From positions 440,001 through 504,000 of the forward strand of contig CP058647.1 of the NCBI GenBank assembly GCA_014323545.1: a stretch of 64,000 nt of DNA, read 5' to 3'. This DNA comes from Hyphobacterium sp. CCMP332. Lineage in GTDB: Bacteria > Bacteroidota > Bacteroidia > Cytophagales > CCMP332. Shown here piece after piece: positions 2,020 through 9,775 of the stretch. Every line of letters begins with the position of its first letter. Position 1 is the first letter of the stretch. The notes under the pieces were generated by a model. That model had not been told where the DNA came from. It saw only the letters and a program-made list of their open reading frames with translations, and made no database searches. The translations under genes were made by a program, and so were the position numbers.

Positions 2020-2081
2020 GCGGATGTGGCGAAATTGGTAGACCTGCCTGCCGACAGGCAGGCGCACTAGATGTCTAGTGC
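2020..2081 (+). pseudogene. Broken tRNA-Leu 5' half with palindrome inserted in the D-loop
   Basis: The first 23 nt match the intact tRNA-Leu that begins at 2131. A 20-bp palindrome (2043-2062) follows, and then nine more tRNA bases (CGCACTAGA, 2063-2071). After that the match stops: there is no anticodon, variable arm or T arm. The bases at the break fold back on themselves, GCACTAGA-TG-TCTAGTGC (2064-2081). It cannot make a tRNA. The same architecture is seen beside tRNA-Arg and tRNA-Pro in this window. Confidence 0.85.
2043..2062 (+). repeat. 20-bp palindromic element, copy 1
   Basis: CCTGCCTGCCGACAGGCAGG, an 8-bp inverted repeat around CCGA, inserted exactly between TAGA and CGC of the tRNA-Leu D arm, immediately before the 3' strand of the D-stem. 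Another copy, differing at one base, is at 9603-9622. Confidence 0.85.
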
Positions 2082-2130: not shown

Positions 2131-2212
2131 GCGGATGTGGCGAAATTGGTAGACGCACTAGACTTAGGATCTAGCGCCGCGAGGCATGGGGGTTCGAGTC
2201 CCTCCATCCGCA
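2131..2212 (+). tRNA. tRNA-Leu (anticodon UAG)
   Basis: Complete 82-nt cloverleaf. The acceptor stem is GCGGATG/CATCCGC, the anticodon stem CTAGA/TCTAG with loop CTTAGGA, followed by a long class II variable arm and the T arm GGTTCGAGTCC. The discriminator is A and the CCA is not fully encoded. It is followed directly by a terminator and the trigger factor gene. Confidence 0.96.
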
Positions 2213-2216
2213 CATC

Positions 2217-8636: not shown

Positions 8637-8701
8637 CCACTAAAAGGAGCGTATGTATTCTTTGGCTCTCCGTACGCATTTAAGATTTGGTTCTTTTTAA
8701 T

Positions 8702-9000
8702 CGCCTTTCCTGCTCACCCGGAAAATTCCGAGACGAAAACCCCTTCTGCTGCGCAGAATGTTTTCTTGTTTTATTGGCATTCAGCAACAAGGATTGGCTC
8801 ATTCCATTCGCCTTTCCTGCTCACCCGGAAAATTCCGAGACGAAAACCCCTTCTGCTGCGCAGAATGTTTTCTTGTTTTATTGGCATTCAGCAACAAGGA
8901 TTGGCTCATTCCATTCGCCTTTCCTGCTCACCCGGAAAATTCCGAGACGAAAACCCCTTCTGCTGCGCAGAATGTTTTCTTGTTTTATTGGCATTCAGCA
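8702..9000. repeat. 107-bp tandem repeat, 2.8 copies
   Basis: Copies begin at 8702, 8809 and 8916 and look identical. Each holds two small palindromes (CGGAAAATTCCG and TTCTGC-TGC-GCAGAA) and ends with a stretch matching the left arm of the large hairpin at 8974-9031. Because 107 is not a multiple of 3, reading frames shift from copy to copy, so I regard this as non-coding. It fills the gap between the gene ending at 8636 and the tRNA cluster. Confidence 0.9.
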
Positions 9001-9031
9001 CTAAAGTGCTGACGCCATAAAACAAGAAAAC
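8974..9031. repeat. Large imperfect inverted repeat at the end of the tandem array
   Basis: The left arm (8974-8992) and right arm (9014-9031) pair over 18 bp with one bulged T. An inner AGCAC-TAAA-GTGCT stem caps it. Only the last tandem unit has the right arm, so only it can form the full hairpin. Confidence 0.8.
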
Positions 9032-9056: not shown

Positions 9057-9064
9057 GTCTCTTG

Positions 9065-9139
9065 TCGGGGCGGCAGGATTCGAACCTGCGACCCCCTGGT
9101 CCCAAACCAGGTGCGCTAACCGGGCTGCGCTACGCCCCG
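9065..9139 (-). tRNA. tRNA-Pro (anticodon UGG)
   Basis: Complete 75-nt cloverleaf. The acceptor stem is CGGGGCG/CGCCCCG with discriminator A, the D-stem GCGC/GCGC, and the anticodon loop TTTGGGA; the T arm contains GGTTCGAATCC. It is the last gene of the minus-strand tRNA cluster. A broken copy of its 5' part lies upstream at 9219-9270. Confidence 0.96.
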
Positions 9140-9210: not shown

Positions 9211-9270
9211 GCCCGGTAAACCGGGCTGCTTGTCTGCCGAAGTGTAACGCAGGCAGGCGCTACGCCCCGA
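9211..9270 (-). pseudogene. Broken tRNA-Pro 5' part with a 29-bp palindromic insertion
   Basis: On the minus strand the intact tRNA-Pro 5' end, with its immediate TC leader bases, is repeated up to the D-stem (9259-9270). It is interrupted by 29 bp (9230-9258) and resumes for 11 tRNA bases (9219-9229). It then ends in a fold-back, GCCCGGT-TT-ACCGGGC on the minus strand (plus-strand 9211-9226). The rest of the tRNA is absent. The form matches the broken tRNA-Leu copy. Confidence 0.8.
9230..9258 (-). repeat. 29-bp longer-loop variant of the palindromic element
   Basis: The arms CTGCCTGCG and CGGCAGAC surround a TTACACTT loop on the minus strand, resembling the 20-bp element with an enlarged loop and decayed arms. 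Because of a shared GC, the insertion point is ambiguous by two bases. One placement puts it directly after the 5' strand of the D-stem. Confidence 0.65.
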
Positions 9271-9279
9271 GAATTTTTG

Positions 9280-9353
9280 TGATTCCACCAGGACTCGAAC
9301 CTGGAACCTACTGCTTAGAAGGCAGTTGCTCTATCCAGTTGAGCTATGGAACC
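9280..9353 (-). tRNA. tRNA-Arg (anticodon UCU)
   Basis: Complete 74-nt cloverleaf. The acceptor stem is GGTTCCA/TGGAATC (one G:T pair), the D-stem GCTC/GAGC, the anticodon loop CTTCTAA, and the T arm GGTTCGAGTCC. The last codons and stop of the GIY-YIG gene overlap its first 23 bases on the same strand. Confidence 0.96.
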
Positions 9354-9582
9354 AATATTTTATGAGTTCTTTTCCAGAACCACCTTTTAAATACTTTTCA
9401 CGAATTCGGGCATCCGACCTTTTGTCGAACTCTTCTACTTTCATCAATTTCCAAGGTCTATAACCTTTTGTCGATTTTGATTTCCATCTATTGTGTTCCT
9501 TTAATCTCCTTTCTACATCTCCTGTCATTCCAACATAGAATCGACCTTCTTCTTCACTTTGCAATATGTATACAAAATACAT
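9331..9582 (-). CDS. Small GIY-YIG nuclease nested against tRNA-Arg
   Basis: An 83-residue single-domain GIY-YIG protein. The two core strands are YFVYILQS and RFYVGMT, followed by the family arginine (VERRLKEHN) and the glutamate-containing helix (ARIREKYLKGG). This is the minimal UvrC-N-terminal / YhbQ-like type, a DNA endonuclease fold. I start at the ATG at 9582. A longer frame from 9660 would read through the tRNA fragment and the palindrome, adding LPAGRQG. The last eight residues (WFHSSTG and the one before) and the TAG stop are encoded by tRNA-Arg itself, through GGATAG of its D-loop. All catalytic features seem present. Confidence 0.85.
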   Translation of the reverse strand: MYFVYILQSEEEGRFYVGMTGDVERRLKEHNRWKSKSTKGYRPWKLMKVEEFDKRSDARIREKYLKGGSGKELIKYWFHSSTG

Positions 9583-9593
9583 TTGTATAATCT

Positions 9594-9644
9594 CAGTTGC
9601 TCCCTGCCTGCCGGCAGGCAGGTATCCAGTTGAGCTATGGAACC
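9594..9644 (-). pseudogene. Broken tRNA-Arg 5' part with palindrome in the D-loop
   Basis: On the minus strand, 22 bases identical to the start of tRNA-Arg (9644-9623) are followed by a perfect 20-bp palindrome and nine more tRNA bases (GAGCAACTG). The sequence then diverges into the leader of the GIY-YIG gene. The insertion is exactly between GGATA and GAGC, the border of D-loop and D-stem. No anticodon or T arm remains. Confidence 0.85.
9603..9622. repeat. 20-bp palindromic element, copy 2
   Basis: CCTGCCTGCCGGCAGGCAGG is a perfect palindrome and differs by one base from the copy in the tRNA-Leu fragment. If translated in the frame that runs into the nuclease gene it encodes LPAGRQG. Confidence 0.9.

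Positions 9645-9686: not shown

Positions 9687-9775
<89 letters not shown>

Follow-up and report, generated by a model that had tools for sequence, protein, structure and literature searches.

The window analysed here comprises 64,000 nucleotides of Hyphobacterium sp. CCMP332 (contig CP058647.1, positions 440,001 to 504,000), and contains a Ser-Pro-Arg tRNA cluster of a kind common across the order to which the genome belongs. On the minus strand, tRNA-Ser(gct) is followed by a split 31-nt copy of the 5' part of tRNA-Arg, a GIY-YIG open reading frame and the intact tRNA-Arg(tct), with the TAG stop codon of the reading frame falling within the D-arm of the intact tRNA (Table 1). The broken copy scores 45.5, compared with maxima of 24 for tRNAs of other isotypes and 15.5 for shuffles. 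The description given in the original prediction, an 83-residue GIY-YIG gene between a palindrome-split tRNA-Arg 5' copy and an intact tRNA-Arg, is exact.

Table 1. Broken and intact tRNA genes and associated features in the window (window coordinates)
Feature	Position	Strand	Basis and remarks
tRNA-Ser(gct)	9687..9775	-	ARAGORN; upstream member of the Ser-Pro-Arg tRNA cluster
Broken tRNA-Arg copy, positions 1-22, GGTTCCATAGCTCAACTGGATA	9623..9644	-	Identical to intact tRNA-Arg 1-22
20-nt perfect palindrome CCTGCCTGCCGGCAGGCAGG	9603..9622	.	At the D-loop junction of the broken tRNA-Arg copy
Broken tRNA-Arg copy, positions 23-31, GAGCAACTG	9594..9602	-	Past the palindrome; identical to intact tRNA-Arg 23-31
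GIY-YIG nuclease gene, 83 codons/83 aa	9331..9582	-	ORF; Pfam
Intact tRNA-Arg(tct)	9279..9353	-	ARAGORN; Rfam tRNA 70.6 bits
Broken tRNA-Pro 5' copy, internal hairpin	9219..9269	-	Read from sequence; GIY-YIG gene absent
Intact tRNA-Pro(tgg)	9064..9139	-	ARAGORN
Broken tRNA-Leu 5' copy: positions 1-23, palindrome 2043-2062, positions 24-32	2020..2071	+	Score 64; GIY-YIG gene absent
Intact tRNA-Leu(tag)	2131..2213	+	ARAGORN

At the tRNA-Arg locus, Rfam reports tRNAs only, beyond implausible sub-threshold matches, and no intron family; as the intact tRNA-Arg is contiguous, splicing is unnecessary there. A group I intron was rejected on both grounds, and other structured RNA on the Rfam result. 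An integrase-type tRNA island was likewise rejected, since between the two tRNA-Arg copies there is neither an open reading frame for a tyrosine or serine recombinase nor room for one.

The encoded protein matches the GIY-YIG family of Pfam (PF01541, E=1.4e-16), and the residues Y5, Y16, G18, R26, H30 and E62 are 98-100% conserved in 116 relatives; domain and conserved Tyr/Tyr, Arg, His and Glu residues identify it as a member of the GIY-YIG nuclease superfamily. With about 80 residues it consists of the catalytic domain alone. The solved structures closest by sequence are the UPF0213 proteins BH0048 (1zg2, E=6.6e-7) and EF2693 (1ywl, E=1.2e-5), while phage homing endonuclease families in PHROG give only weak matches (best named one 1.7e-4 to 5.8e-4). 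A single query found no relatives in viral contigs or plasmids, and on this ground a phage or plasmid origin was rejected.

The genome itself holds eight GIY-YIG matches, one of which (L002) repeats the architecture at tRNA-Ser(tga) with a 5' copy carrying hairpin insertions, the gene and the intact tRNA; the genes at L005-L008, with no tRNA within 1.5 kb on each side, provide an internal contrast. At L008 a GIY-YIG fragment comes directly after what seems to be the C-terminal portion of an IS transposase. In all, 197 related GIY-YIG genes were sampled from loci of the order, which are over-represented and mutually non-independent, and from scanned genome contigs of bacteria and archaea. A tRNA lies within 200 nt of 121 of the 197 genes, and its strand is that of the gene in 157 of the 159 with a tRNA in the flank; considered separately, the scanned contigs, which come from many phyla, give 36 of 62 genes within 200 nt of a tRNA, all 36 on the same strand. 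The arrangement at tRNA-Arg is an instance of a repeated pattern and no isolated coincidence. This pattern was not found in the literature on tRNA-associated bacterial GIY-YIG proteins or on the palindrome sequence, which, as open-licence papers only were covered, is weak evidence of novelty. Among the genomes compared, the window genome is alone in its genus, within a family of three genomes. At none of the tRNA-Arg(tct) loci examined in other genomes of the order is there an extra Arg copy; at one of them (L308) a GIY-YIG gene lies in the neighbourhood, near tRNA-Pro.

Two geometries can be distinguished, 'down', in which a 5' copy, the gene and the intact tRNA follow one another, and 'up', in which the intact tRNA and the gene are followed by a 3' copy. 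When candidate copies were scored against about 55 tRNAs of other isotypes and 50 shuffles, a broken copy of the same tRNA was recognised across the gene at 25 of 31 'down' and 48 of 84 'up' loci; at the remaining 36 'up' loci the same test, which is conservative where near-identical broken tRNAs (e.g. Asp) enter the control draw, found no recognisable broken copy. The idea that the unit brings a 5' half fits the window locus, but it is not a rule of the family, as the 'up' geometry with its 3' fragment is the commoner one in the sample (84 versus 31 tested) and both occur within one isotype clade. Genes of this size ending inside a tRNA, which had been suggested as a search, do exist, the stop codon lying inside a tRNA or tRNA-like gene in 14 of the 31 'down' cases. 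At L137 and L144, tRNA-Ala-like genes have the anticodon arm replaced by TCCCGAATGCTTTCGGGA and are called by ARAGORN as tRNAs of unknown anticodon.

Occupied and empty sites can be compared directly at tRNA-Leu(caa), where 30 loci of one genus share a common upstream flank. Seven of these carry the gene together with a broken copy, 21 neither and two broken copies alone, so that a broken copy accompanies all seven GIY-YIG loci versus two of the 23 without the gene (Fisher p=1.8e-5); this is a presence/absence polymorphism at a defined tRNA site. An Algoriphagus litoralis contig (L049) matches the arrangement of these loci. An insertion of about 490 nt, with duplication of the terminator and the tRNA 3' end, distinguishes the occupied L235 from the empty L233, the two being collinear on either side of it; the occupied L253 and the empty L254 share 97% identity in the upstream flank, tRNA and terminator included. 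The broken tRNA-Leu copy of L253 is followed by an apparent transposase-bearing insertion, so that in the compared stretch the downstream flanks of L253 and L254 lack collinearity. The tRNA-Leu sequences of occupied and empty loci can be identical (L234 and L235 versus L233; L253 versus L254), and self-protection is therefore not encoded in the tRNA sequence there. These sites support the original prediction of a small nuclease-associated mobile unit that enters tRNA genes while leaving an intact copy, and the empty sites for which it proposed to look do exist (21 of 30 at tRNA-Leu(caa), and the Arg(tct) loci of other genomes with no extra Arg copy).

Broken copies also occur without the gene, in the window at tRNA-Leu(tag) and tRNA-Pro(tgg), the latter missed by the alignment survey because it is split by a hairpin, and elsewhere at L239 and L248; the gene is therefore not always required at the site. 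The broken tRNA-Leu 5' copy of the window with its D-loop palindrome is possibly a non-autonomous derivative. Such GIY-less derivatives measure about 92-111 nt, and for this reason the window unit, proposed as among the smallest nuclease-only mobile units, is not the smallest. Immediately downstream of tRNA-Pro and on its strand, window positions 8700-9005 hold nearly three tandem repeats of a unit of about 110 nt. In the survey of tRNAs in the same genome, which is based on regions and not on the whole genome sequence, L170 (2379200-2381000) has tRNA-Ala(ggc), a 3' fragment near it and a palindrome, and no GIY-YIG gene. In tandem arrays, near-identical genes recur with a period of about 348-398 nt and are separated by a tRNA remnant; L248 has three repeats of a unit of about 92 nt that lacks the gene.

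Taken as a whole, the window locus probably belongs to a family of tRNA-targeting GIY-YIG mobile units that are minimal and chromosomal and for which cleavage is predicted. The nuclease would break a resident tRNA gene in its D-loop or T-loop part, and recombination, with the tRNA halves serving as homology, would copy the unit in. The resident tRNA would thereby be split, leaving a hairpin-capped dead half, while the unit would provide the missing half or a whole tRNA, such that the cell retains a functional gene; the junction hairpin would prevent renewed cutting or use of the dead copy. In the window, the unit would have entered tRNA-Arg(tct) at about position 22-31, with the intact gene using the unit-borne 5' part.

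The D-loop, in 5' copies, and the T-loop, in 3' copies, are the main end points of the broken halves, and the 22-nt junction sequence folds with a minimum free energy of -6 or below in 50 of 69 cases versus 11.6% of control windows. With the tRNA written as x y, the loci take the form x [hairpin] y' - gene - x' y or x y' - gene - x' [hairpin] y. As the fragments end at these loops with a junction hairpin, the hairpin or palindrome is probably the end of the unit and no random interruption, which is further favoured by several 3' copies being recognisable on the native side of the hairpin only. Palindromes of the 20-nt type present in the window occur in Bacteroidota and Patescibacteria (L053, Amesbacteria; L058), and the strict pattern is found in 53 of 390 genomes, with zero in the control.

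On the other hand, two processes might be superimposed, in that the GIY-YIG unit invades tRNAs while the palindromes may be independent mobile hairpins which enter hairpin loops anywhere and reach dead tRNA copies owing to their lack of constraint. This reading, which we regard as a serious possibility without expecting it to hold, is compatible with the main explanation and not with the hairpin as part of the unit. Most palindrome matches examined in other genomes are distant from tRNAs, and those away from tRNAs (L164-L209) favour the loops of other inverted repeats, with a mean flank stem of 4.05 versus 2.97 shuffled. Co-occurrence of palindrome and GIY-YIG gene is strong over the 390 genomes (p=3e-19) but non-significant within the main family (p=0.20), so that phylogeny may account for it, and the palindrome was rejected as proof of GIY-YIG activity. 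Against a superposition of this kind stand the junction hairpin in most broken copies across phyla, the many 3' copies that preserve the native side of the hairpin only, as expected of a unit end, and the three strict palindromes of the window genome, which all lie within broken tRNA copies.

The protein tree, although built on 75 columns only and with many weak forks, clusters by tRNA isotype, with 36 changes versus a mean of 82 and a minimum of 75 in 300 shuffles; its cross-phylum subset gives 23 changes versus 28.0 shuffled (minimum 25). Clades correspond to Leu, Ser, Met, Asp, Ala and Phe, with 'up' and 'down' loci intermixed in those of Leu and Ser. Such clustering would likewise result if the units had persisted at one site by vertical descent only, but their scattered presence argues against it. 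At three tRNA-Leu loci (L248, L252 and L262), the acceptor-stem allele of the leftmost broken 5' half (CCCAGG or CCCAGA) differs from that of the intact tRNA, with matching pairs in its own acceptor stem, which suggests from the alleles that the whole tRNA and not a half has been replaced. In the upstream-gene tree L248 stands beside an empty locus carrying the other allele; the case of L252 is less sharp, because empty loci with either allele are nearby. The replacement of a half, as originally envisaged for the 5' part, still fits the window, while at these three loci the whole tRNA seems to have been exchanged.

Passive tandem duplication, by which local recombination of tRNAs leaves one copy to decay while GIY-YIG genes merely persist in relaxed spacers, would be in line with the tandem arrays, with the terminator duplicated along with the tRNA 3' end at tRNA-Leu(caa) and with broken copies lacking the gene. 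We consider it unlikely, as it leaves unexplained the isotype fidelity of the protein tree, the near-total strand agreement, the D-loop and T-loop junctions with their hairpin and a broken half whose allele is unlike that of the intact tRNA.

A catalytic domain of about 80 residues without a DNA-binding domain needs a source of specificity, and a structured, target-matching sequence adjoins the gene; the broken tRNA copy and hairpins might thus act as a guide RNA that directs the nuclease towards the cognate tRNA gene. Such guidance is very improbable, since the broken copies decay freely and the part retained varies, the hairpins of the close relatives L234 and L235 differ and on inspection display no clear base-pair conservation, and the isotype is followed by the protein lineage itself; given the variability of the broken copies, the idea is unsupported. 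Remnants of integrase- or phage-derived islands in tRNA genes are hardly credible, as, although tRNAs split around insertions are typical of integrases (PMC9897764), an integrase is absent from the units of about 0.4-0.5 kb in the loci seen and this query gave no viral-contig or plasmid relatives.

For the tRNA-targeting GIY-YIG units, a precedent is offered by SegB of phages T4 and T6, a free-standing GIY-YIG homing endonuclease that cuts within tRNA genes, has the reported motif RAWTSGAAC and drives tandem amplification of the tRNA-segB unit, with microhomology between the tRNA 5' end and the segB 3' end (PMC13096335). By our own reading of the motif as reported there, its reverse complement, GTTCSAWTY, corresponds to the tRNA T-loop, the site of many junctions here. 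A free-standing GIY-YIG gene adjoining tRNA genes is common to both, and like SegB the window gene lies outside any intron or intein, with no intron family at the locus and the tRNA contiguous. SegB is the closest known enzyme and a tested precedent for cutting of tRNA genes and amplification of a unit. In contrast, SegB is a phage protein while the elements here are chromosomal, and it is more than twice as long as the window-type protein of about 80 residues. Hairpin-capped broken tRNA halves, isotype-specific lineages and tRNA replacement, as seen or suggested for the elements here, are not described for SegB in the part of the study considered.

UPF0213 proteins such as BH0048 and EF2693 are single-domain GIY-YIG proteins of similar size, but no tRNA association was found described for them. 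Integrase-dependent tRNA islands are also flanked by an intact and a partial tRNA and keep tRNA function (PMC9897764), whereas the units here, of about 0.1-0.5 kb, are without an integrase and either tRNA end is restored. Group I intron endonucleases of the I-TevI type share the GIY-YIG catalytic domain and homing into conserved sites, and the window protein has a weak NCBIfam match below the cut-off; the window locus, however, is without an intron according to Rfam and its protein without a DNA-binding domain. The palindromes here are, like REP/RAYT palindromes, short and possibly mobile and, like mitochondrial repetitive hairpin elements (PMC2800124), found in hairpin loops; unlike in REP/RAYT, their link to the GIY-YIG protein is correlative.

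A bolder version of the preferred explanation, put forward tentatively and more doubtful than not, is a natural gene drive of the 'cleave-and-rescue' kind on bacterial chromosomes, in which a nuclease of about 80 residues would break a single essential tRNA gene and the allele of the unit would replace it, the hairpin-capped old halves staying behind and the GIY-less derivatives being non-autonomous passengers. With the units as such, GIY-YIG homing enzymes that cut tRNA genes, as known in phages, would also be represented on bacterial chromosomes, as small units with a bare catalytic domain in several phyla, including Bacteroidota and Patescibacteria; the units offer an origin for partial tRNA genes and for the replacement of tRNA alleles. 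They also open to direct testing the questions of how a nuclease of 80 residues finds a single tRNA isotype and how the host survives an essential tRNA gene as target.
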